DNA of 64,000 nucleotides, taken from positions 1-64,000 of the forward strand of contig JAMORY010000025.1 in the NCBI GenBank assembly GCA_027063305.1, written 5' to 3'. Source of the DNA: Sulfurovum sp. GTDB taxonomy: Bacteria; Campylobacterota; Campylobacteria; Campylobacterales; Sulfurovaceae. Every line of letters starts with the position of its first letter. Position 1 is the first letter of the stretch. This document shows positions 1,202 through 61,523 of this stretch, piece by piece. Below the pieces are notes generated by a model. The model made no database searches. It was not told the origin of the DNA and saw nothing but the letters and a program-made list of their open reading frames with translations. The translations under genes and the position numbers were made by a program.

Positions 1202-2389
1202 TCAGGAGAGTGTTTTCCCTTTGATCAAAACAGTGAAGAACCGAATACCCCAAAGAATGAACATCAGCATCCATACTGTAGCGGAGATGTCGAAAAGAAC
1301 CATGAAATTCCATCCGAACGCTGCGGCGACAGAAACGAACAAGCGCATGATCACTACGACCTGAGTCCAGTTAAAAAGTACCTTCTCCCACATAGTCGCT
1401 TGCATCATGTTCCCTGAGTGTCCGATAGTTACACGTGTTCCGAACCCGATGAGTATGGTAAAGACAAATCCCAACATCAGTACATGAATGTCAAGAAGCA
1501 GGAAGGTCGCACCGCTAATGAGTGCGGTCAGGTTTGACATTGCCCCGAACAAAAAGGCAACAGGGATCCAGTAGAGTGCCAAGTGGAGTATCCATAGCAG
1601 TGGATTAGGGTTGGGGAAGGGAAGTTCCCAGCGTAGGATCTCTTTGCCGATATAGAATGCCAGTGCCAGATCGACAGGGAAACTGCTATGTGTAAAAAGA
1701 CTCTCTAGCACTACATGAAGAGCAAGCATTACAGCTACATTCCTGACAAAAAGATCGTTCCGTACATACATGCAGTGTGAGAAGAAAGGTACCATACGCT
1801 GTGCAACGGAGAAGGTCAGTAAAAATAGGTAGAGATAGATGCCGATCTGTGTGGCAAAAAAGAGAAGAAAAGGAAGAAAGAGCATTCCCAGAAGATAGAG
1901 AATGTGTGCAAAGAAGCCAACACCCATTGCCGAGAGTATCCAGAAGAGGTCATGTTTATCCGGCATGGTTGTCATTGTGTATATCTCTTTAAGGATACCA
2001 AATATCATACTATGAGCGACCAGAAGTACCACAACACCTGCATAGGCAATGAGTGGAGATACGATGCTTCCTAGTGCAAAAAGTATGGAGCCGATATAGT
2101 AGAGGCTAAAAATACGTATGTAGATCGTTCTCTTAATAGGTGGGGTTGATGAAAAACGGGGGAATGTGGTAAATAGAAATGCGGTAAATGCCGGGGTAAA
2201 GAGTAAAAAGAGCATGGCATATCCGTGAAAGAGCGTAGCTGAGATCGCCAGATGAAGTATACCTTTATAGCTTAGAAGGAAAATAAGCATGGTTACAATG
2301 GCATTGACAAAACCAAGAAGAAAAAATGGTTGGTGGGGTTGGGAGAAGAAGTAGCTCTCTTGGGCATTTTCACTAAAGTTAAAGTGCAT
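1202..2389 (-). CDS. nnrS: NnrS family haem/copper membrane protein
   Basis: 395 residues with about twelve hydrophobic spans, matching NnrS, an integral membrane haem- and copper-containing protein associated with nitric-oxide stress and denitrification in Proteobacteria. Recognisable parts are the N-terminal FSQPHQPFFLLGF segment, the central QRMVPFFSH segment with its conserved His, and the late TRVTIGHSGN segment with another conserved His. The upstream gene on the same strand is a cytochrome c peroxidase, so the pair fits a respiratory or nitrosative/oxidative stress context. No strong Shine-Dalgarno precedes the ATG. Family assignment is firm; the exact physiological role is not. Confidence 0.88.
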   Translation of the reverse strand: MHFNFSENAQESYFFSQPHQPFFLLGFVNAIVTMLIFLLSYKGILHLAISATLFHGYAMLFLLFTPAFTAFLFTTFPRFSSTPPIKRTIYIRIFSLYYIGSILFALGSIVSPLIAYAGVVVLLVAHSMIFGILKEIYTMTTMPDKHDLFWILSAMGVGFFAHILYLLGMLFLPFLLFFATQIGIYLYLFLLTFSVAQRMVPFFSHCMYVRNDLFVRNVAVMLALHVVLESLFTHSSFPVDLALAFYIGKEILRWELPFPNPNPLLWILHLALYWIPVAFLFGAMSNLTALISGATFLLLDIHVLMLGFVFTILIGFGTRVTIGHSGNMMQATMWEKVLFNWTQVVVIMRLFVSVAAAFGWNFMVLFDISATVWMLMFILWGIRFFTVLIKGKTLS

Positions 2390-2462
2390 ACTGAAGCCTT
2401 TTTGGGCGTATCATAACAAAAGCATCTAAAAAAGGGATTGAGCTGTATCAATGAGAAAAGTT

Positions 2463-2563
2463 ATTGCATAGGTTTCCCGATTGACCGGGATCTCCGGGGG
2501 AGGGAGACAGTTCTTTAGGAAGAAGAAAAGGGAGACCCGACCAATACGGGAAGCCTATGCAAT
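2463..2563. repeat. Inverted pair of REP-like palindromic units
   Basis: Left arm 2463-2495 and right arm 2530-2563 are imperfect inverted copies: both begin ATTGCATAGG, run on with TTCCCG or CTTCCCG, then ATTG, then CGGG and TCTCCC. Each arm also folds on itself (TTCCCG against CGGGA). This is the layout of a bacterial interspersed mosaic element: two REP units facing each other. It lies in the 222-base gap between nnrS and the cytochrome c peroxidase gene, both on the minus strand. Confidence 0.75.
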
Positions 2564-2571
2564 AGTGTATC

Positions 2572-2602
2572 ATACTGCTCCTCAAAAGAGGAAGAGCAGT
2601 AT
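2572..2602 (-). terminator. Hairpin downstream of cytochrome c peroxidase
   Basis: ATACTGCTC (2572-2580) pairs perfectly with GAGCAGTAT (2594-2602), with a further CCTC/GAGG inside. It starts about 10 bases after the stop of the peroxidase gene on the minus strand. There is no long U tract, so it may stabilise the 3' end rather than terminate alone. Confidence 0.55.
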
Positions 2603-2611
2603 AGACAGATT

Positions 2612-3634
2612 TTACTTAAGATCAGGTTTAGGTGTCTTATTTGTGCTTTCTGGAAGCTGTGGGTATTCCACTGCCGGTTTTCTACCTTTAAGTGCACCAA
2701 GGAATGTAACGATCTTTTGTGCATCTGCATCAGAGATCTCTTTTCCAAGTTGTGTTTTACCCATCTCCTGAACCGCTTCTTTGAGTGACCAGATCGCACC
2801 GTTGTGGAAGTATGGTGCAGTCTCAGTGATGTTTCTGAGTGTCGGTGTTTTGACCATACCGTTCTTGTCACCTTTGAAGTCACCAACATTGGCATATTTA
2901 TACGGCTTGACAAGTGGGAATTTCTGCATACTTCCGCCAAGTGCTACACCTGTGTGACACGCTGCACAACCCATATCGATAAATGTGTTCAATCCCTCTT
3001 TTTCCTCTTTGCTCAACGCATCTTTCTTTCCATTAAGGAAATCATCGAATCTTGATGGTGTTACAAGTGTTCTTTCAAAGATACCGATCGTTTGTGTGAT
3101 CGTTTTGAAGTCGATCTTCACATCGTTACCGTATGCTTTTTTGAATGCTGAAACATACGCAGGCATAGAGTTGACACGTGCTTCGACAAGTGACGGTGCT
3201 GCTGCCATTTCAGGTGCCGCTTGCATTGGTCCTTGTGCCTGATCTTCAAGGTCAGGGCTTCTTCCGTCCCAGAACTGTCTGTCGGCGAATACTGCATTAT
3301 ATACGGTAGGTGAGTTGAGGTGGTGCGGGTTTGCCGTCCACTTATGACCTACAGCTGCCGATATACCGTCAACACCGCCCATACCGAGATTGTGACATGT
3401 ATTACAAGAGATCAGCCCGCTTTTAGAGAGTCTTGGTTCAAAATAGAGTTTTTTACCAAGTGCTACACGCTCAGGTGTGATGGACTTGTTCGGGTCGATC
3501 ATTTTTGCAAGTGTGGCTTTATCTGTAGGGATAGCTACCAAACCTGCATTTTTTGCTTTTGTTGCGATATCCGTCGATGCCAATAGTAGTGAAGATGCCA
3601 ATACTGACACTCCGATAAGTTTTAATACTTTCAT
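2612..3634 (-). CDS. ccpA: Dihaem cytochrome c peroxidase
   Basis: 340 residues of the bacterial CCP/MauG family, which reduces periplasmic hydrogen peroxide to water with electrons from small c-type cytochromes. A signal peptide (MKVLKLIGVSVLASSLLLA) is followed by two haem c sites, CNTCH at residues 77-81 and CAACH at 223-227, the usual two-domain layout. Conserved FWDGR and the late TPTLRNI and PYFHNGA segments are present; the last carries a haem-ligand-type His. A good ribosome site (AGGAGAA) precedes the ATG at 3634. Downstream lie a hairpin and then nnrS. Confidence 0.93.
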   Translation of the reverse strand: MKVLKLIGVSVLASSLLLASTDIATKAKNAGLVAIPTDKATLAKMIDPNKSITPERVALGKKLYFEPRLSKSGLISCNTCHNLGMGGVDGISAAVGHKWTANPHHLNSPTVYNAVFADRQFWDGRSPDLEDQAQGPMQAAPEMAAAPSLVEARVNSMPAYVSAFKKAYGNDVKIDFKTITQTIGIFERTLVTPSRFDDFLNGKKDALSKEEKEGLNTFIDMGCAACHTGVALGGSMQKFPLVKPYKYANVGDFKGDKNGMVKTPTLRNITETAPYFHNGAIWSLKEAVQEMGKTQLGKEISDADAQKIVTFLGALKGRKPAVEYPQLPESTNKTPKPDLK

Positions 3635-3786
3635 ATTCGTTCTCCTATTCGATAATGGATAGAGGGATTATACAGTAGTAAATATTAAAGGAAAATAAAT
3701 ATTATCTAAAAAATATTTTTAAATGTTTGAATCATTTTTTCTCATATGCTACTTATGTCGCATCACTATCGATAGCGTACGTGTTA

Positions 3787-3820
3787 TGATACATTCAATA
3801 CATATCAAGATTATGTATCA
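3787..3820. promoter_or_regulatory. Candidate operator: spaced inverted repeat
   Basis: TGATACAT at 3787-3794 and ATGTATCA at 3813-3820 are a perfect inverted repeat separated by 18 bases, and the left half overlaps a -10-like TATGAT (3785-3790). A separate 10-base palindrome CTATCGATAG lies at 3766-3775. Both are in the divergent gap between the peroxidase gene and the DUF1931 gene. Binding by a dimeric regulator is inferred; no regulator is identified. Confidence 0.4.
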
Positions 3821-3846
3821 AATAAAACGTTAAAAAAGGATAGAAC

Positions 3847-4296
3847 ATGGCAGTAGTAGGATTTACAAAACTAGAAGCACTTTTTAGAAAAGCAGCGTCA
3901 CTTGACATTAAAAAAGGACATGCAAAAGAGATCACCGATATCGTTGAGAAGAAATTGGTAGACCTTCTGATCGCAGGTGAGCGTAATACGAACATGAACG
4001 GAAGAGATGTCATTATGGAATCAGACCTTCCTATCACAAAAGGGTTGCAAGAGACGATCATCGCGTTTAAAAAGCTTGAAGAGGATATCGATCTTAAAGA
4101 TGTACTCGATACATTGACAACCTTCCCGCCACTCAAGTACCCTTATGCAGCGGATCTTGAAGCGAAACTTCCAGAGATCACCGGTGCATTGTTGGTTGTA
4201 ATGGCAAAGATCATGAAAGAGATTGACGGTAACGACCGTGCACTTGATCATGAGACCATTGAGAAGACACAAACGATCATGGATCTGACACTCTAA
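3847..4296 (+). CDS. DUF1931 protein with double histone fold
   Basis: 149 residues resembling the DUF1931 family, whose structurally known member from Aquifex aeolicus (Aq_328, as I recall) carries two histone folds in one chain. The family hallmark NGRD (about residue 56) followed by a SDLPITKGLQ stretch is visible, as is the later FPPLKY turn and an LLVVMAKIMK helix. Length agrees with the family. No signal peptide or membrane span. The gene is monocistronic, with its own promoter region holding a spaced inverted repeat, and convergent with helicase 1. DNA binding or compaction is inferred from the fold; no function is established for the family as far as I know. Confidence 0.85.
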   Translation: MAVVGFTKLEALFRKAASLDIKKGHAKEITDIVEKKLVDLLIAGERNTNMNGRDVIMESDLPITKGLQETIIAFKKLEEDIDLKDVLDTLTTFPPLKYPYAADLEAKLPEITGALLVVMAKIMKEIDGNDRALDHETIEKTQTIMDLTL

Positions 4297-6886: not shown

Positions 6887-7699
6887 ATGAGCATTCACAC
6901 CCCTAGAATAGAGAAAAAAGTGACACTTAGTACCATCGCGAAGATGAAAGGTGTTGAACCTATTACCATGGTAACGGCATACGATGCGCTCTTTGCGCAG
7001 CTTTTTGACGGTGAGGTCGAGATGATACTAGTCGGCGACAGCCTCAATATGAGCTTTTACGGCAAAGCAGATACCCTTTCGGCAACCATGGATCAGATGA
7101 TCTACCATACACAGGCGGTATGTAACGGAGCTAAACATGCGTGTATTGTCTTCGATATGCCTTTTGGCTCCTACCTGACACCCCAACAGGCACTGGAGAA
7201 TGCCGCACGTGTCTACCGTGAGACCTGTGCGGATGCGGTCAAGGTCGAAGGGGGCAAAGAGAAGGTAGCTGTGGTCAAAGCACTTTCACAGAACGGTATC
7301 GCCGTAGTTGCCCATATCGGTCTGATGCCTCAGCATGTCAGAAGTGAAGGGGGCTACAAGGTACGCGGTAAAGATGAAGCCGATATCGAAGCGTTGGTAG
7401 AGGACGCGCTTGCATTGGAAGAAGCAGGTGCGGTGATCGTATTGGTAGAGGGTGTCAAGGCTGAAGCGGCAAAACGTATTACCGAAGCGGTCAAAGTACC
7501 GACCATCGGGATCGGTGCAGGGAGTGAGACAGACGGTCAGGTACTGGTCTGGTCGGATATGTTCGGTTTCTTCGAAGCCTTTACCCCGAAATTCGTCAAG
7601 CAGTACTGCAACGGTGCCAAAGAGGTGCGCAAAGGGCTGGAGCAGTATGTTTCAGAAGTAAAAAGCAGAGCTTTTCCTGATGAAAAACACTCGTATTAA
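6887..7699 (+). CDS. panB: 3-methyl-2-oxobutanoate hydroxymethyltransferase
   Basis: 270 residues. First committed step of pantothenate synthesis: transfers a hydroxymethyl group from 5,10-methylenetetrahydrofolate to ketoisovalerate. Family signatures seen: ITMVTAYDA near the N-terminus, LVGDSL with the Mg2+ ligand Asp, MPFGSY, KVEGG, AHIGLMPQ and GIGAG. Length is normal. The stop codon is followed at once by the left heptamer array of the 7.7-kb repeat element, and ruvB follows after the element. Confidence 0.95.
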   Translation: MSIHTPRIEKKVTLSTIAKMKGVEPITMVTAYDALFAQLFDGEVEMILVGDSLNMSFYGKADTLSATMDQMIYHTQAVCNGAKHACIVFDMPFGSYLTPQQALENAARVYRETCADAVKVEGGKEKVAVVKALSQNGIAVVAHIGLMPQHVRSEGGYKVRGKDEADIEALVEDALALEEAGAVIVLVEGVKAEAAKRITEAVKVPTIGIGAGSETDGQVLVWSDMFGFFEAFTPKFVKQYCNGAKEVRKGLEQYVSEVKSRAFPDEKHSY

Positions 7700-37874: not shown

Positions 37875-37963
37875 CACTGAAAGTAAGTTTCAAGCAATAG
37901 AAAAAGAAAATTTTAGATAGAATGATGATTATATTTGAATGAGGGGAGTTGCTTGTTTTTATT

Positions 37964-40900
37964 ATGAATAAATCACCAAAAGATGTACTCAAAAAATCAT
38001 ATCTTAAAGAAAAACCTGTAGAAAAAGAGATTGATGAATTTATTAAAGCCATAGAAGATCTGAAAAATGAAATCCATGAGAATGAAAGTGAAGAATACAA
38101 TAAAAATCTCCTTCCTACTTTTTTTCAATCTATTGGCTATCGAGACTATAAAATCAATACAAAGGGGCGAATAGATCTTGCTATTTACAATAAAGAGAGT
38201 ATTCCCGAAGTCATTATAGAGGCAAAAGCACCTAAAAATAGATCGGAAATGATCAGTCATGACAACTTCAACAAAAAAGCATTTCATGAGGCATTACTCT
38301 ATTTTTTACAAGAGATAAATAAAGAACATAACTACGATATCCGTCATGTTATTATTACCAATATGTATGAATGGTATGTTTTTGATGCGGCTGAGTTCAA
38401 TAAGATCGCTTCCAATAAAAAAATAAAAAAATTCTATATCGATACGGAAATTAAAAAACGAAGCCTGTTTCAGCTCAATCATGATAAATATGAAACATTT
38501 AGACAGATACTTGAGAGTGAAAAAGTACTACAAAACTTGGACTATGTACGCTTTAATCTCAAAGATGACTTTAATAAAACTTACATCAAAAACTTATACA
38601 AATTTCTTTCACCAAGACATTTGTTAAAACAATATATTGAGTCTGATTCCAATACGCTTAATACCAAGTTCTATGATGAGTTGCTCTATATTTTAGGATT
38701 GGAAGAGACTTCGGGTAACAAAAAATTGATTCAGCGTATCTCTCCTTCAAAAAGAAGTTACGGTTCACTGATAGAAAACACCATACGCAAACTTGAAACT
38801 GAGACGGAGTGTAGAGGTAAAGAGAACGAAGAGGAGCTCTTTGAAATTGCATTGGGGCTTAATATTACATGGCTTAACAGAATACTTTTTCTGAAGCTAC
38901 TTGAAGCAAAGCTTTTAACGATCCATAACGGGAAGTATCCAAAGTTTCTCTCTTTTGAAATAGTGAGAGAGTTTGATAATCTTAATACACTGTTCTTTGA
39001 AGTATTGGCAATAGATATCACAGAAAGAAAAGCTATTTATATTGATGCATTTAAAGAGATACCTTATCTGAACAGTGTGCTTTTTGAGACCACAAAGCAA
39101 GAGTGTGACTATTTGCGTATAAGTAACTTGAAGGATAACGCCAAGATTAAAGTCCTTTCAAAATCTGTCTTGACGCAGCATAGAAATGAGGAATTAAATA
39201 CTTTGGAGTATCTGCTTAAATTCCTCTCTGCTTATGACTTCGCGACAGATTCGAGTGCAGAGTTTAAAAATGAACATACGCTCATCAATGCTTCTGTTTT
39301 AGGATTGATTTTTGAAAAATTGAACGGTTATAAGGATGGAAGTTTCTATACACCAAGTTTCATTACGATGTATATGACCCGTCAGACCATACGAAATGCA
39401 GTCGTATCCAAATTTAATGAAGCATTGAAAGATGATCATATTGTATTTGAAAGTTTTAGTGAATTAAAGAACTATAGCGAAGCCAATTTTTATAAAGAGG
39501 ATTTTAAAAAGAGAGCAAACCAAATTTTAGATAGTATCACCATAGTTGATCCTGCGGTAGGTAGTGGACATTTTTTGGTTTCGGCACTTAATGAACTGCT
39601 TGTAGTAAAAAGTGAATTGAAAGTGTTAAGAGGTTTGGCTGCCTACAATGTGACAAATGAAAACGATGAACTTTACATAGAAAACAAAGAGGGTGTTTTT
39701 TTTGAATATAGATTCGGTGCATCTGGCAAAATAGATAAAGAAGCACAAGAGGTGCAAAAAGCGCTTTTTCATGAAAAACAAAAGATCATAGAAAATCAAC
39801 TATTCGGTGTTGATATCAATCCAAACTCCGCACAGATCACTAGACTGAGGCTTTGGATAGAACTGCTTAAGCACAGCTATTATGATGATAACGGTATGTT
39901 TGTTACGATGCCCAATATTGATATCAATATTAAAGCTGGAAATTCACTCATAAGCCGTTACAGTTTGCATGATGAGATAGATATCCCTAACATACAGTAT
40001 GATATTGAACGGTATAAAAGTATTGTCAAAGAGTACAAAGAAGGTATTTTTTCTGTTACTAAAGATGAGATACGAAGTGTGATAGATGACCTTAAAGAGA
40101 AGTTTAAACTCTCTCTTAAAGCAGAATGGAAAGAGATCAAAAAGCAAAAAGAGTTATTAAAAGAGTATGTTAGCGAGTATGGTTTTCATAATCTCTCTGA
40201 CGATTTATCGCTTCTGGCGGTCAAAGAGGGATATAGACCGCAAGGTACACTTTTTGGTGACGATGATGAGACTATCACAAAAGCAAAAGCTAAAAAGAGA
40301 GAAAAACTACTGAAAAAGTTGATAGATATCACCCATCAGATAGATGAAAAACTCAATGGAAAGATCTACGAAAATGCTTTTGAGTGGCGGTTCGAGTTTC
40401 CCGAAGTGCTGGATGATGAGGGGAACTTTGTAGGGTTTGATGTGGTGATCGGCAATCCGCCGTATATCATGGAAGATGATAACAAGTCGGCATTTAACGG
40501 GTTACATGAGGTGCCGTGTTATCAAGGAAAAACAGATATTTGGCACCTGTTTACCTGCAAAGCGATTGAAATAGCCAAGCAAGACGGATATATAAGCTTC
40601 ATTGCCAAAAACCAATGGCTTGACAGTGCAAGTGCTTCAAATATGCGTAGAGTGCTCTATGACCATACTTCTATTGAAAAAATCATAGATTTTGGTACCA
40701 ATATGGTCTTTAAAGATGCTGCACAACAGACAATGATATTTGTATTAAAAAAGAGTAGTGAAGGAAAAGAACATCATATAGATTATGTTAAATATGCGGA
40801 CAAAGTATCTTTAGAAGAGATTACGGAACATTTGCATGATATGGAGCCGTCCGAGTTTGTGAAAATGGGACAAAAAATACTTCCAAGAGAGTATGATGAG

Positions 40901-41791
40901 AAGGAGAATATTGGTTTTTCTTCTCCTGAAGCGGAAGCTATTTTGTATAAAATAGAGAAACGGAAAAACTTCATTTTTGACGAAAAAGAGGAGATGATAC
41001 AGGGTATCATCGGTGGACCAGATAAAGCCTTTATCATTCCCAAAGAAGCGTTGAATAGTTTTGAGGAGAAAGAAAAAATCTACTTCAAAATGCTTCATAC
41101 CCATACCGATAGATACTATACAGAAGATACGGACAAATATATTTGTTATATTGCCAAACATAATTTTAAAGATAAAGATATTGAAGATTATCCAAATATA
41201 AACAATATGTTGTTGCCTTACAAATCATACATAGATGAAAAAGGAAAAGAAAAAGGATTGGCACATAGAAGAGAGGTTCTTAAAGGTAGTATTGAGTGGT
41301 ATCATCTTTGGTGGGCGCGAGATGAATCTTTTTTTAAAGAAGGAGCTAAACTTATTTTTGCATCTCGTACATTAGGTAAAAACTTTACTTATACCGATAA
41401 AGTATTTTATGGTTCAAGAAATCTTTTCTTTATCAAGTCAAATAGAGTAGATCTTAAATATATAGTAGCCCTGCTCAACTCCTCTTTGATGTACTTTTAT
41501 ATGCAGGAGAGACTCAAACATACGGGTGATTTGTTACAAATTGATAAAAATCAGTTTATGAAAATACCACTTTATGTCCCTGAAAATAGTGAAAAGTTTG
41601 GTCAAGTTGTAGATAAAATTATTGACATTAAAAAACAAAACCAAGATACTACCGAACTTGAAGCTCAGATAGACCAAATGGTGTATGAACTGTACGGTTT
41701 GAATGAGGAGGAGATTGCCATTGTAGAAGGCAGGGAGTTTGAACCGGAGGATGAAATGGGGTATAATAGCACTATGGAGAATGCAGAATGA
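37964..41791 (+). CDS. Type IIG restriction-modification enzyme (Eco57I-like)
   Basis: 1275 residues in one chain. The N-terminal domain carries a PD-(D/E)xK pattern (D71 in GRIDLAIY, E86 and K88 in IIEAK), a likely nuclease. A helical region follows, then an N6-adenine methylase with motif I DPAVGSGHF (near residue 528) and motif IV GNPPY (near 829), and a C-terminal target-recognition region. This is the layout of enzymes that cut and methylate with the same polypeptide. Codon use is strikingly A+T-rich compared with flanking genes, which suggests transfer. The start at 37964 is taken because a GAGGGGAG lies upstream; a TTG at 37949 is too close to it. The stop overlaps darG (ATGA). No separate specificity gene is present. 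Confidence 0.85.
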   Translation: MNKSPKDVLKKSYLKEKPVEKEIDEFIKAIEDLKNEIHENESEEYNKNLLPTFFQSIGYRDYKINTKGRIDLAIYNKESIPEVIIEAKAPKNRSEMISHDNFNKKAFHEALLYFLQEINKEHNYDIRHVIITNMYEWYVFDAAEFNKIASNKKIKKFYIDTEIKKRSLFQLNHDKYETFRQILESEKVLQNLDYVRFNLKDDFNKTYIKNLYKFLSPRHLLKQYIESDSNTLNTKFYDELLYILGLEETSGNKKLIQRISPSKRSYGSLIENTIRKLETETECRGKENEEELFEIALGLNITWLNRILFLKLLEAKLLTIHNGKYPKFLSFEIVREFDNLNTLFFEVLAIDITERKAIYIDAFKEIPYLNSVLFETTKQECDYLRISNLKDNAKIKVLSKSVLTQHRNEELNTLEYLLKFLSAYDFATDSSAEFKNEHTLINASVLGLIFEKLNGYKDGSFYTPSFITMYMTRQTIRNAVVSKFNEALKDDHIVFESFSELKNYSEANFYKEDFKKRANQILDSITIVDPAVGSGHFLVSALNELLVVKSELKVLRGLAAYNVTNENDELYIENKEGVFFEYRFGASGKIDKEAQEVQKALFHEKQKIIENQLFGVDINPNSAQITRLRLWIELLKHSYYDDNGMFVTMPNIDINIKAGNSLISRYSLHDEIDIPNIQYDIERYKSIVKEYKEGIFSVTKDEIRSVIDDLKEKFKLSLKAEWKEIKKQKELLKEYVSEYGFHNLSDDLSLLAVKEGYRPQGTLFGDDDETITKAKAKKREKLLKKLIDITHQIDEKLNGKIYENAFEWRFEFPEVLDDEGNFVGFDVVIGNPPYIMEDDNKSAFNGLHEVPCYQGKTDIWHLFTCKAIEIAKQDGYISFIAKNQWLDSASASNMRRVLYDHTSIEKIIDFGTNMVFKDAAQQTMIFVLKKSSEGKEHHIDYVKYADKVSLEEITEHLHDMEPSEFVKMGQKILPREYDEKENIGFSSPEAEAILYKIEKRKNFIFDEKEEMIQGIIGGPDKAFIIPKEALNSFEEKEKIYFKMLHTHTDRYYTEDTDKYICYIAKHNFKDKDIEDYPNINNMLLPYKSYIDEKGKEKGLAHRREVLKGSIEWYHLWWARDESFFKEGAKLIFASRTLGKNFTYTDKVFYGSRNLFFIKSNRVDLKYIVALLNSSLMYFYMQERLKHTGDLLQIDKNQFMKIPLYVPENSEKFGQVVDKIIDIKKQNQDTTELEAQIDQMVYELYGLNEEEIAIVEGREFEPEDEMGYNSTMENAE

Positions 41792-42693
41792 TCACCTATG
41801 TCCGTACCAATATCTTTGAGTCTAATGCTCAAGTGCTTGTTAATACCGTCAATACCGTAGGGGTCATGGGCAAAGGACTTGCCAAAGAGTTCAAACGTCT
41901 CTATCCGGAGATGTTTAAACAGTATCAGAAATTCTGCGAACAGGGTCAGTTGACCGTCGGTAAATTACAGCTCTATAAAACACCTAACAAGTGGATACTG
42001 AATTTCCCTACCAAAGCCAACTGGAGACATCCATCTAAACTGGAATATATTGAGCAGGGTCTACAAAAATTCGTAGACAATTATGCAAGGCTTGGCATTA
42101 CCTCCATTGCTTTTCCGATGCTCGGATGCGGAAATGGCGGTCTCTCATGGGAAGATGAGGTCAAACCGCTTATGGAGAAGTATTTGGCTGATCTCCCCAT
42201 AGAGATCTACATTCACATTGCCAAACAAGATGCTTATAAACCGGAACATCATGATCAAGCTCAGATCGACCGGTGGTTGCACAGTGAACCCGACTATCTC
42301 TCCGCTGTTGAGTTCATCGGTGATCTAAGACGCCATTACGCAGGCTTGATCAATACAGTCAATAAAATGCATATCGGTATGGAGATCAGCATAGAACAGA
42401 TAGGAGAGCAAGAACTATTCTGTCTGGAAAATGATACGATCCACCTCTGTTTGGATGAAGTGAGTCTTACGGGTATGTGGCAGTCACTCAGAGAGAATGG
42501 TATATTGCGCGCATCCATGCTCTCTTCCGATCTGGCGAAACATGCTGAATATGTGATGGTTTTTCTTAGTGAGTTGGACTATCTGGTACTGACTCAGATA
42601 GGAGACAACGAAGATGAACTGGCAGTAAGACTACTCTCGCATAAACAGCCGCTTAAAGAGCCTGAGCAAGTATTTTTTGGTGATGTTGCGTAG
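41788..42693 (+). CDS. darG: DarG-like macrodomain protein (DNA ADP-ribosylglycohydrolase antitoxin)
   Basis: 301 residues. Residues 1-155 form a macrodomain of the DarG type: NTVNTVGVMGKGLAKEF binds ADP-ribose, and LNFPTKANWR carries the Lys (K76) that corresponds to the DarG catalytic lysine, with LGCGNGGL later. It would remove ADP-ribose from thymidines modified by DarT. Residues 156-301 are an extra helical/beta region that may contact the toxin. Its ATG overlaps the restriction-modification stop, and its own stop overlaps the next gene. Here antitoxin precedes toxin, the reverse of the usual darT-darG order. Confidence 0.85.
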   Translation: MITYVRTNIFESNAQVLVNTVNTVGVMGKGLAKEFKRLYPEMFKQYQKFCEQGQLTVGKLQLYKTPNKWILNFPTKANWRHPSKLEYIEQGLQKFVDNYARLGITSIAFPMLGCGNGGLSWEDEVKPLMEKYLADLPIEIYIHIAKQDAYKPEHHDQAQIDRWLHSEPDYLSAVEFIGDLRRHYAGLINTVNKMHIGMEISIEQIGEQELFCLENDTIHLCLDEVSLTGMWQSLRENGILRASMLSSDLAKHAEYVMVFLSELDYLVLTQIGDNEDELAVRLLSHKQPLKEPEQVFFGDVA

Positions 42694-42695
42694 TG

Positions 42696-43673
42696 ATGAA
42701 CAGAGAAGCATTTGCCAAAGCATTTAAGAGGCAGTTGGCTGAGAGCTATCAAGACGGTTATCAGGCGTGGTGGCACAAGTACCTTTTTCACTTTAGTGAT
42801 ATAAGCAATGTTATTTCCATTTTAAACTCAGGCAGGCTCTATAGTCGAAACAGAGCACTCGAATTGGGACTCATGCAAAATGATAATGCCGATGATGATG
42901 TTATAGAACATACCACGTTGGATGCAAAGGATTATGTACGCTTTTACTTCGGAGCATTGACACCGACACAGTATCACAATGAAGGGTTTAAGCCGCAAAA
43001 CCAAATTACCAACAACGCACACTGTCCGGTACCGGTTTTTTTACTCTTTGATTTTGTCTCGCTTTTAAGTTATCAAGAGTGTCGTTTCAGTAGCGGCAAT
43101 ATTGCCGCTTCAGGGGTCGATATCTATAGTGACATTCAGGATCTTGAGAGATTGGAGTTCGAGCATATATATCATCGTGGTAGTCTTTATGGTGTACCGA
43201 ATGCTTCACATATCACATACTGTAGGCATGCTGAGGTACTCCTCCCTCATGAGCTGGATATATGGGATGCTTTAAAGTTTGTAGTGGTTCGTTCGGAAGC
43301 TGAGAAGCAGACATTGATACATCATTTGAGAGATGATGTTTTAGAGAAGATAGCAGATACAATACGCGTACGAACGAACGGGCTTTTTTATGCGAACAGG
43401 CTCTATGTCAAAGAGGTGAATTTAGTCGATAACGGTTATATCATTACCTTCTCCAAAGCAACAGTACCCGATAGATTTGATTTTCGTTTTATTGTGACGG
43501 ATCGCCGTACCGGAAAGAGCATTATTAAAGAAGTGCCACAAGTTACGCTTGAGAATGCCAAGCCCAAACTGTTAATAGATGGTGATCTAAAAAATAGTAT
43601 ATTGCGTATAGAAATAAATGGGCATTTGGCGTATGAACATGACTTTAGTCACCTGTTGCATATTTTAGTTTAA
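42696..43673 (+). CDS. darT: DarT-like DNA ADP-ribosyltransferase toxin
   Basis: 325 residues. Family features: FHFSDISNVISILNSGRLY near residue 32 (NAD site), DYVRFYFGALTP and the catalytic-Glu-type segment RHAEVLL (near residue 180). DarT proteins transfer ADP-ribose from NAD+ to thymidine in single-stranded DNA and arrest replication, including that of phage. The last 100 residues or so are a beta-rich extension not seen in the short DarT proteins I know. A GTG at 42693 is an alternative start. The stop is directly followed by the end of msrA on the other strand, with no spacer. Confidence 0.82.
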   Translation: MNREAFAKAFKRQLAESYQDGYQAWWHKYLFHFSDISNVISILNSGRLYSRNRALELGLMQNDNADDDVIEHTTLDAKDYVRFYFGALTPTQYHNEGFKPQNQITNNAHCPVPVFLLFDFVSLLSYQECRFSSGNIAASGVDIYSDIQDLERLEFEHIYHRGSLYGVPNASHITYCRHAEVLLPHELDIWDALKFVVVRSEAEKQTLIHHLRDDVLEKIADTIRVRTNGLFYANRLYVKEVNLVDNGYIITFSKATVPDRFDFRFIVTDRRTGKSIIKEVPQVTLENAKPKLLIDGDLKNSILRIEINGHLAYEHDFSHLLHILV

Positions 43674-58622: not shown

Positions 58623-59866
58623 AAAAGGTCTTTTTCAAAACATTCGGATGTCGTACCAACCAGTTCGATACGCAAGTGATGATGTCCAAGCTCAAAGACC
58701 ACCAGCTGACACAAGATGAGCTTGATGCAGAAGTGGTCGTTGTCAACTCCTGTACCGTAACCAACGGTGCGGATTCATCGGTGCGTAACTACATCTCTTC
58801 CATTAAGCGTAAGAACCCTCAAGTACGGGTTATCTTGGCAGGTTGCGGTTCTCACTCCAAAGGGGAGTCGCTCTTTGAAAGCAAGAAGGTCTTTGGGGTC
58901 ATGGGGCATTCTGAAAAAGAGAAGATCAACGAGATACTAAAAAGAGAAGAGCGCTTTTATGAGATAGGAGACCTTGCACATGTCGATTCGACCATTGTCG
59001 AGGAGTTCGTAGGTAAAAGTCGTGCGTTCATCAAGGTGCAAGAGGGGTGTGATTTCGCCTGCTCTTACTGCATCATTCCTGCGGTTCGCGGAGGGGCGCG
59101 TTCTCACCGTGAAGAGACTGTCTTAGAGCAGATCAGGAAGCTTGCTGCGAATGGATTTGGGGAGTTTATCTTAACGGGTACCAATGTCGGAAGTTACGGG
59201 AAGGATCACAACACCTCCATGGCGGAACTGCTTAAGAAGATCAGTATGATCCGAGGGGTCAGACGTATCCGTATCGGGAGTTTGGAGCCTATTCAGATCG
59301 ATGATGCCTTTATGGAGCTTCTTGATGAGCCATGGATGGCAAAACATCTGCATATCGCACTGCAACACACATCGGACAAGATGCTTGAACGGATGAACAG
59401 ACGGAACCGTTTTGAGAGTGATCTTGCGCTGTTTGAGAAGATCGCATCGCACGGCTATGCGCTTGGAACGGATTTTATCGTCGGGCATCCGGGTGAGGAT
59501 GAAGCTGCATGGCAAGAGGCGATAGAGCGTGTTAGGATGCTGCCTTTGACCCATGTGCATGCCTTCTCCTACTCTAAGCGTGACAATACTGCATCGGCAC
59601 AAATGAAAGAGATTGTCCGCGGTGATATTGCAAAAGTAAGGCATAGAGAGTTGACCACACTGGTCAAAGCGAAGAACTACGCCTTTAGAAGAAGTCACAA
59701 CAGCAACCTTGAAGTGCTGCTTGAGAATGGGAAGGACGGAGTCTTTTACGGCTTCGATCAATACTTCAACCGTGTTGAGGTGACAAGTAGCGAGGAGTTG
59801 AGTTCAAACTGGGTACTCTTGAATGATGTGGAGGTCAAAGAAGATGGCAACTACGCAACGCTCTAG
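58619..59866 (+). CDS. mtaB: tRNA t6A37 methylthiotransferase
   Basis: 415 residues. Radical-SAM enzyme adding a methylthio group to t6A37. UPF0004 domain with Cys in TFGCRTNQ, NSCTV and AGCG (three Fe-S ligands), radical-SAM CDFACSYC near residue 143, and a C-terminal TRAM-like end. The absence of a long insertion and the FGCRTN form fit MtaB rather than MiaB or RimO. Coupled to neighbours on both sides. Confidence 0.92.
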   Translation: MKKVFFKTFGCRTNQFDTQVMMSKLKDHQLTQDELDAEVVVVNSCTVTNGADSSVRNYISSIKRKNPQVRVILAGCGSHSKGESLFESKKVFGVMGHSEKEKINEILKREERFYEIGDLAHVDSTIVEEFVGKSRAFIKVQEGCDFACSYCIIPAVRGGARSHREETVLEQIRKLAANGFGEFILTGTNVGSYGKDHNTSMAELLKKISMIRGVRRIRIGSLEPIQIDDAFMELLDEPWMAKHLHIALQHTSDKMLERMNRRNRFESDLALFEKIASHGYALGTDFIVGHPGEDEAAWQEAIERVRMLPLTHVHAFSYSKRDNTASAQMKEIVRGDIAKVRHRELTTLVKAKNYAFRRSHNSNLEVLLENGKDGVFYGFDQYFNRVEVTSSEELSSNWVLLNDVEVKEDGNYATL

Positions 59867-61523
59867 TATGAAAAAGAGGTTTATTCTCGAAAAACCGATA
59901 CGTATCATCATTGTGTTGGCAGGTGTATTGGTATTGCTTCTGGCATTTGCTTTTATGCGTGATACTGCAAAGCTCATTGGACATAAAGAGGCGAATGTAC
60001 TTTATACGAAAGATCGTATTAAAAAGCTTGTCCTTGATGGGGAATATTTCTATCTGATCACCAAAGACGGCACCTATAAGGTCTACAAGGATGCCATCAA
60101 CCAAAATGCTTTCTTCTCCAAATATCCCGTCGAGGTCAAAGAAGACCCTCTTGTTTGGTATGACCTTCTTTCACTTCTACTGTTCGCCGGTGCGATCTTC
60201 TATCTGTTCCGTTTTCTTAAAGAGAGCCGTACCCAGCAACTTCAACAGGTGGAAGCACTGCAAAGCAATACCTCCCAGACCCGGCACTCTCCGATACAGG
60301 CGATCCGTTCTAACGTGACCTTTGATGATGTTGCGGGTATCAAGGATGTCAAAGAGGAGCTTGAGGAGATCATCGATTTTCTTCGTGATCCGCAAAAATA
60401 CCGTGAACTCGATATCCGTCTGCCAAAGGGGGTGTTGCTTGTAGGCCCTCCGGGTGTCGGGAAAACGCTCATCTCCAAAGCGGTTGCCGGAGAAGCAGGT
60501 GTACCGTTCTTCTACCAAAGCGGTGCATCGTTCGTGCATATCTATGTGGGTATGGGGGCAAAACGTGTGAGTGAGCTCTTTGCCAAAGCCAAGCAGATGG
60601 CTCCGAGTATCATCTTTATCGATGAGATCGATGCGGTCGGGAAAAGCCGTGGAGAGTTTCGTAACGATGAGCGTGAAGCGACGCTCAATCAGCTATTGAC
60701 CGAGATGGACGGCTTCGAAGAGAGCTCAGGGGTCATCGTTATCGGTGCGACCAATAAGATAGACGTACTTGATGAAGCATTGTTAAGAGCAGGGCGTTTC
60801 GATAGACGTATTCACATCTCCCTGCCTGATCTGGAAGATCGTATCAAGACGCTTGAGCTTTACCTTGCCCATAAGCCTCATAATGTGGATATCGAGCATG
60901 TGGCACGTATGACAGTGGGGTTCAACTCCGCAGCACTCGACACCCTGACGAACGAAGCGGCGATCCATGCAATGCGCGAAGGAAGAAAGGTTGTGGAGAC
61001 CTCCGACTTTGAAGCGGTTAAAGAGAAGGTACTATTGGGAAAGCGTAAGATACTCAGTTTTAGTGATGAAGAGCGACAGATACAGGCACGTTACCAAGCG
61101 GCAAAAGCGGTGGTGGCAACGTGGCTTGATGTGGAGTTTGAGAAGATAGGTATCGTTACCACCCGTTTCGTGACCCAAGAACATGAGATACTCTCCCGTT
61201 CGGCACTGATGAATCGTATTAAGGTCTATTTGGCAGGAAGTATCGCTACGCAGATGCACTATCATGAGCAGTTCACCAATGCCGGAGAGGATATCCATCA
61301 GGCAAAAGCATTGGCGCATAAAGCGATATATGAGTACGCCATGAGTGAGAACTTCAGCATCTCTCCCGCAGAAGAGGAGTCTTTGCTTCAAACGGCGATT
61401 GTGGAGCTTAAAACACTACTTAAGCAGTTGGAGCCGGCAGTTGAAGAGGTGGCGGCATATCTTTTGGTGTCGGAGAATATAGAACGGGAGAGATGCAGGA
61501 GGGTACTTCTTGACCTATTTTAA
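59844..61523 (+). CDS. FtsH-like AAA+ protein that has lost the protease site
   Basis: 559 residues. Two membrane spans (20-38, 105-123) around a small periplasmic domain, then an AAA+ domain with Walker A GPPGVGKT (201-208), Walker B IIFIDEID (257-264), second region of homology, and arginine-finger region [10 protein letters not shown]. The pore motif reads FVHIYVG where FtsH has F-V-x-M/L-F-V-G. In the peptidase region the zinc motif HEAGH is replaced by YQAAK (417-421), although the later Asp is kept (GEDIHQAK). ATP-driven unfolding without cutting is expected. Relatives (HP0286, as recalled) lie next to mtaB in the same way. The ATG at 59844 has GGAGG upstream. Confidence 0.85.

Follow-up and report, generated by a model that had tools for sequence, protein, structure and literature searches.

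The DUF1931 gene of this Sulfurovum sp. contig is predicted to belong to a regulon of protein quality control genes. We put at about 0.7 the probability that its product, a histone-fold pseudodimer, works outside chromatin in protein quality control, and that it is expressed from a promoter shared with chaperone genes and activated by a Crp/Fnr-family regulator. The DNA analysed is a single stretch of 64,000 nucleotides (the window); the coordinates of the features under study are given in Table 1. The common DUF1931/chaperone regulon is well supported by comparison of promoter regions. A promoter common to DUF1931, dnaK, hsp20, yfdX, hdeD and htpX gives a testable protein-quality-control claim for a family without a role.

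Table 1. Features of the DUF1931 locus (positions in the window)
Feature	Position	Strand	Basis
Di-haem cytochrome c peroxidase (CCP_MauG), divergent	2612..3634	-	Pfam
Operator TGCTACTTATGTCGCA, 1 mismatch to TGCWAC-N4-GTWGCA, predicted Crp/Fnr-type activator site	3747..3762		orthologue comparison
Predicted extended -10 TGTTATGAT, hexamer TATGAT at 3785-3790, 22 nt past the operator	3782..3790	+	sequence, spacing
Inverted repeat TGATACAT-N18-ATGTATCA, judged a chance feature	3787..3820		arms at 3787-3794 and 3813-3820
Predicted transcription start, about 7 nt past the -10, operator centre near -42	3797	+	position of the -10
Probable ribosome-binding site AAAAGGA	3834..3840	+	read from sequence
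DUF1931 double histone-fold gene, 149 aa, pI 4.9	3847..4296	+	ORF, Pfam, PDB relatives, AlphaFold2 model

Fold and charge of the DUF1931 protein

The protein matches the PF09123 (DUF1931) profile over its whole length (profile positions 1-138 of 138, E = 1.6e-50, 171.3 bits against a cut-off of 21.8), contains the NGRD...DLPITK motif and, as judged by eye, has no obvious signal peptide. A sequence search of the PDB identified 1WWI/1WWS from Thermus thermophilus (1.2e-33) and 1R4V from Aquifex aeolicus (1.1e-15), and no other relative up to E = 1. The AlphaFold2 model, built with 40 aligned sequences as input (pLDDT 91.7, pTM 0.87), contains two histone folds in one chain, with helices at residues 6-17, 23-50 and 65-76 and at 83-90, 102-126 and 135-148. 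It superimposes on 1WWI with Z 26.1, 0.8 Å rmsd and 42% identity, and on 1R4V with Z 16.9, 2.3 Å and 30% identity. The next fold matches are histone doublets: the Methanopyrus histone 1F1E (Z 12.0), Melbournevirus doublets, H2A-H2B and the SAGA chain 6t9i_C. No chaperone is named among the 50 fold matches listed, which excludes nothing. The family and fold matches confirm the family name proposed in the earlier note, which had recognised a DUF1931 double-histone-fold protein by its NGRD...ITK pattern. Its remark that the family has no known role, and here stands under its own promoter, also agrees with our results and with the accessible passages of the papers, which assign no role.

Bacterial histones have two main families, and the pseudodimeric DUF1931 proteins form one of them, according to the passages seen (PMC12701072). 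The basic character of nucleosomal histones is absent from the window protein, which has a pI of 4.90 and a net charge of -7.3 at pH 7. Among members that passed a length filter, the pI ranges from 4.81 to 5.44 in 21 proteins from Campylobacterota and from 4.74 to 6.14 in 25 others. The passages available likewise describe DUF1931 doublets as being without the high pI seen in another archaeal doublet (PMC10919886). In the RKTxxxxD loop of DNA-binding histones, K/R and T touch DNA, and R and D shape the loop (PMC11390915, part of the text). The shaping residues R53 and D60 are invariant in all 43 aligned DUF1931 members, and both contact positions are replaced, in the window protein as in the others: K by D in 42 members and by E in one, and T by V, I or L in 43 of 43. 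Four basic residues, R14, K23, K27 and K36, are conserved. The acidic pI and the missing contact residues make chromatin packing unlikely. DNA binding by the protein itself is thus judged unlikely from charge and residues, in agreement with published remarks, in the parts of the texts seen, that the family has no DNA-binding residues and no assigned role (PMC12701072, PMC11390915, PMC13088155).

The two proteins of known structure, TTHA1479 of Thermus (1WWI) and Aq_328 of Aquifex (1R4V), resemble the window protein in the whole-length PF09123 match and in having no DNA-contact residues. The passages available on them give no function; the window protein, by contrast, comes with a regulon and a stress-gene context. 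The T. thermophilus DUF1931 gene TT_C1115 is listed among genes with a low transposon hit rate in the portion of the source seen (PMC13140390).

A conserved operator and the predicted regulon

Side-by-side reading of the upstream regions of orthologues uncovered the palindrome TGCWAC-N4-GTWGCA, located about 40 bp upstream of the inverted repeat that the earlier note had pointed out. The window copy differs from the consensus in having GTC instead of GTW. Of 27 loci, 26 have the operator, with at most one mismatch, ahead of the DUF1931 unit; in the remaining one (L036) the contig stops at the gene before the unit. In 46 named Campylobacterota loci, the operator stands no more than 400 bp from the assigned start of the unit in 36 cases and the reversed pattern in none; for one of the 36 (L159) the scored match is inside yfdX and the promoter site was found separately, and among the 10 misses several have a wrongly placed start of the unit or only a short stretch of DNA upstream.

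The operator is followed by a -10 element at an almost constant distance. In the spacing analysis we used the 45 sites found within 1.5 kb upstream of DUF1931 in 44 loci and the window; L141 and L149, which have too little upstream DNA, were left out, and L148, identical to L146, was counted with it. A TANNNT sequence begins 21 nt (29 sites) or 22 nt (12 sites) past the 16-mer at 41 of these sites, and the next commonest offset occurs at 8 sites. Two of the remaining four sites are inside yfdX, one is inside another gene, and one is an extra site in L157. The composite promoter, operator plus -10, is thus present in 41 of the 44 Campylobacterota loci and in the window; no site was found within 1.5 kb in L171, L172 and L175. 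The spacing is the same where DUF1931 stands alone and where it follows yfdX. The window promoter has a TG upstream of TATGAT, and no clear -35 element. Class II activators of the Crp/Fnr family bind a dyad centred near -41.5, and both the size and the position of the palindrome match this mode of activation. The promoter geometry therefore appears to be of the class II Crp/Fnr type, with the start position derived from the predicted -10. The divergent peroxidase gene was considered as a second target of the same operator and rejected: on its strand no TANNNT stands at 21-22 nt, so it is probably not controlled from this site.

Other genes share the composite promoter. In 15 DUF1931-bearing genomes the exact 16-mer has 53 sites, several of them inside genes and so not in promoters, and the reversed control has 7. 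The window's genome contains 33 matches with at most one mismatch and 23 for the control, and single-mismatch sites alone are therefore weak evidence. Selecting the sites with a -10 at 20-23 nt past the operator and an ORF behind it left DUF1931, yfdX, hsp20, dnaK, hdeD and one dubious 84-aa ORF, whose site (L076) is likely spurious. The htpX gene, with TATTCT 22 nt past the operator, falls outside the ORF filter, where a longer in-frame start was chosen, and was added from reading the sequence. The six target genes are spread over contigs C25, C27 (at two places), C28 and C29, and only the crp, yfdX and hsp20 genes are adjacent. Pfam analysis of representatives confirmed the YfdX, DUF308/HdeD, HSP20, Peptidase_M48, Rhodanese and DUF505 families; dnaK was identified by its phmmer label in congeneric genomes and recognised by sequence in the window's genome.

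When 61 genomes of the genus were searched, 71 matches to the composite promoter were obtained, compared with 3 for the control; 27 of the genomes have the promoter. As a check against mere co-travel of a crp-yfdX cassette, 20 regions with composite sites, mostly distant from crp, were opened. They lead into dnaK (13), hsp20 (3), hdeD, DUF1931, a rhodanese-like ORF and an unlabelled ORF (one each).

Two more gene families were seen at operator sites. In several genomes a gene for a 649-aa DUF505 protein (MLIKKEHA...), located behind the DUF1931 operon in L031 and L034 and seen in L121 as well, has an exact operator to itself; the protein looks like another member of the regulon. Rhodanese-like genes stand on exact operators in L102, L108, L109, L114 and L272, in L108 and L109 divergently from a gene for an exported Hsp20-like protein, and are likely further members.

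The candidate regulator is a Crp/Fnr-family protein. In the window's genome the gene for this 224-aa protein (L087, 3482-4156) immediately precedes yfdX, behind which come hsp20 and an hsp20-like gene, and a relative in G044 has the cNMP_binding and HTH_Crp_2 domains. Of the 46 Campylobacterota loci, 16 have such a gene close to DUF1931, in most cases right before yfdX. The protein contains no cysteine and hence is not an FNR-type iron-sulphur sensor. An orthologue was found in 24 of the 61 genus genomes, and the composite promoter in 24 of 24 genomes with it and in 3 of 37 without it (Fisher p = 4.9e-14, which is not a strict probability given the shared ancestry of the genomes). The orthologue threshold (identity of at least 61%, E of at most 2.5e-77) was chosen after viewing the table, and co-occurrence was scored at the genus level, as a paralogue of about 44% identity blurs the threshold at the family level. 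The three promoter-bearing genomes without a clear orthologue are G014 (100% complete) and G139 (65% complete), both with sites at dnaK, and G106, where a 58% identical fragment was counted as absence. An Rrf2 gene, seen near dnaK only, was set aside as a candidate for the regulator.

An element conserved in this way, present at chaperone genes as well and linked to a Crp/Fnr regulator, speaks for regulation in trans. In the mechanism that we propose, the Crp/Fnr-family protein encoded beside yfdX would bind the palindrome and activate transcription from about -41.5, in the class II manner, substituting for the -35 element. DUF1931 would then be made together with Hsp70, small Hsp and the envelope factors YfdX, HdeD and HtpX and, judging by this gene company, may act as a cytosolic stress-protective partner, that is a co-chaperone, a holdase or an adaptor.

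Gene neighbourhoods and known systems

DUF1931 has a patchy distribution, with 29 of 120 genomes of the family and 20 of 298 of the phylum sample. The named-genome scan covered the best 80 of 315 confirmed relatives and is biased to close relatives, many being the same genomes as those of loci with G handles; the closest, with 85-88% protein identity, come from MAGs assigned to Sulfurovum and, in one case, to Campylobacterales. Among the 46 Campylobacterota loci, yfdX is nearby in 30, hdeD in 31 and htpX in 3, and at least one tagged stress gene or crp in 37. Outside Campylobacterota, 20 of 34 loci contain a DnaK, GrpE, DnaJ, ClpB or Hsp20 gene, and 10 have no tagged stress gene in the DNA covered.

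The gene order Hsp20-DUF1931-PsiE was found in nine Thermaceae loci (L184, L186, L188, L189, L191, L195, L199, L206 and L209), in eight of them with an antiporter gene next. Thioredoxin, ClpB and, in four loci, DnaK/GrpE/DnaJ genes are encoded within 10 kb in several of these regions, and Pfam identifies PsiE, Na_H_Exchanger, TrkA_C, Thioredoxin, HSP20 and ClpB domains among the neighbours. Hsp20 is near DUF1931 in 11 of 33 loci outside Campylobacterota (L211 not included), 9 of the 11 being Thermaceae, against 0.56 expected from genome-wide copy numbers; without Thermaceae the figure is 2 of 24 against 0.32. Outside Thermaceae the Hsp20 link is thus weak, and the chaperone link rests on DnaK/ClpB operons. 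A baeRF (bacterial archaeo-eukaryotic release-factor-like) gene was also seen near the Thermaceae clusters of Hsp20-DUF1931-PsiE and antiporter/TrkA_C genes.

In PLSDB, DUF1931 was found on 22 plasmid records, 15 of them from Rhodococcus. All eight plasmid regions opened, a non-random choice among the 22, have chaperone genes within 7 kb. Upstream of DUF1931, Rhodococcus and Nocardia plasmids carry dnaK, dnaJ, cbpM and clpB, mostly with grpE and trxA, and on some of them DUF1931 comes right after an FAD-dependent oxidoreductase gene. The neighbours are GroES-GroEL-Hsp20-Trx-DnaK in Trichormus, Hsp20-Hsp20 in Aquicella and, at the edge of the region, DnaK in Streptomyces. Plasmid 4 of Aquicella lusitana (L133) has an apparently split gene, with DUF1931 matches at 1863-2033 and 7001-7318; one of them, a fragment, follows two Hsp20 genes, and the second match is 5 kb off, beyond a Tn3-family transposase. 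A viral carrier was considered and rejected, with no relative found in viral contigs.

HrcA with CIRCE and HspR with HAIR are repressor systems that control dnaK and other chaperone genes; HrcA and HspR govern heat-shock control in pathogenic relatives of the vent bacteria. In contrast to these repressors and their operators, the site described here is a predicted activator site, likewise at dnaK. The proposal is thus a heat-shock-type regulon of vent bacteria under a Crp/Fnr activator. NssR and NssA-C of Campylobacterota belong to the same Crp/Fnr superfamily as our candidate. In the passages seen, their consensus is TTGA-N6-TCAA, at nitrogen-oxide genes, including Crp/Fnr sites at denitrification genes in Nitrosophilus (PMC11539149); the present regulon differs in its operator TGCWAC-N4-GTWGCA, its proteostasis genes and its cysteine-free regulator.

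The transmissible locus of stress tolerance (tLST), as described in the passages available (PMC8290217), shares Hsp20, YfdX, HdeD and an HtpX-like M48 protease with the present regulon, and in Thermus the neighbours of DUF1931 extend this likeness to Trx, PsiE, a Kef-type antiporter and ClpB. The Thermaceae cluster looks like a tLST-type stress cluster of thermophiles. In Sulfurovum the gene families are shared, but a single contiguous mobile island was not found in the window's genome, where genes from separate parts of the chromosome, dnaK and DUF1931 among them, have one operator in common. The present regulon would resemble tLST in its working, and we do not class it as tLST. The text of PMC8290217 contains neither "histone" nor "Crp". 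Our literature search yielded no DUF1931-chaperone link in the passages retrieved, and nothing that joins a bacterial histone fold with Hsp20/ClpB, YfdX with Campylobacterota or tLST with histone, or that concerns TTHA1479. For a heat-shock Crp/Fnr regulon in Nitratiruptor, nothing on point appeared among the 10 of 170 matches listed. The novelty of the DUF1931 stress regulon is provisional, because subscription papers and preprints were mostly outside the search.

Weighing the alternatives

The earlier note suggested that the protein might regulate its own promoter through TGATACAT-N18-ATGTATCA. The repeat is exact as described, and its left arm overlaps the predicted extended -10; this part of the observation stands. 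The regulatory reading was not borne out. When the 212-bp intergenic region was shuffled 300 times with its dinucleotides preserved, 27% of the shuffles contained a perfect inverted repeat of this kind, with arms no shorter than 8 bp and a spacer no longer than 30, and 0.45 occurrences of the 34-mer with at most three mismatches are expected per 64-kb window. A comparison with orthologues, the check proposed in that note, gave no exact copy within 400 bp upstream of any of the 46 Campylobacterota genes, where L136 comes nearest, with 3 mismatches in the 16 arm positions, and the other 45 have 4-8; among 268 loci, the window's own is the single exact copy. The repeat was accordingly rejected as an operator, and a histone-like autoregulator acting there is highly improbable. 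A dimeric regulator of another kind might instead own the conserved operator, the Crp/Fnr gene merely accompanying the yfdX cassette. The dnaK site of G014, a genome without a clear crp orthologue, and an Rrf2 gene that in L091 and L113 stands some 1.3 kb away from the dnaK site would fit such an arrangement. We regard it as unlikely, given the co-occurrence with crp, distal dnaK sites included, the crp genes near DUF1931 in 16 of 46 loci, and a palindrome whose size and computed spacing suit class II activation.

The gene company is open to different readings as well. A stress-induced nucleoid protein that binds or shields DNA in heat or oxidative stress, as Dps does, would be expected to be co-regulated with chaperones, and both the confirmed histone fold and the conserved R14, K23, K27 and K36 agree with it; the acidic pI of the members compared (4.74-6.14), the replaced loop residues and the survey passages that find no DNA-binding residues leave it with a low probability. 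DUF1931 could also be a passenger of stress islands that acts elsewhere, for example in redox or metabolite sensing, the chaperone linkage then being uninformative about its role. Such islands are mobile and mixed, the distribution of the gene is patchy, and the oxidoreductase neighbour on some Rhodococcus and Nocardia plasmids would suit a role of this sort. Against it, the promoter logic is unchanged whether DUF1931 is alone or in a yfdX operon, and the chaperone company recurs in unrelated phyla with differing gene orders; we consider the passenger explanation doubtful. The preferred reading, a role in protein quality control, is suggested by the promoter held in common with heat-shock chaperones, which points to coping with protein damage rather than to DNA packaging, and it would account for the missing DNA-contact residues. 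Promoter co-membership alone does not establish a biochemical function, and the activity of DUF1931 as a co-chaperone or adaptor is inferred from sequence context. We speculate, with slightly less than even confidence, that in DUF1931 an ancient double histone fold has been turned into a dedicated proteostasis factor, which acts in the cytosol as a (co)chaperone or adaptor and travels with Hsp20, ClpB, DnaK, YfdX and HdeD across phyla and plasmids. In Campylobacterota its inducer would be a Crp/Fnr-type activator of which the literature searched gives no description and which controls dnaK itself by way of TGCWAC-N4-GTWGCA.

Several other genes of the window were noted. An NnrS-family membrane protein gene adjoins the peroxidase gene that is divergent from DUF1931 (1202-3634, by Pfam). 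An AAA+ ATPase of 566 aa (59823-61523) weakly matches the M41 (FtsH-type) peptidase domain. Positions 37949-43673 encode a type IIG restriction-modification enzyme (PADLOC E 7e-260) and, after it, a DarG-like macro-domain protein and a DarT-like ADP-ribosyltransferase; together they make up a defence cluster, in which the last two form a DarTG toxin-antitoxin pair.
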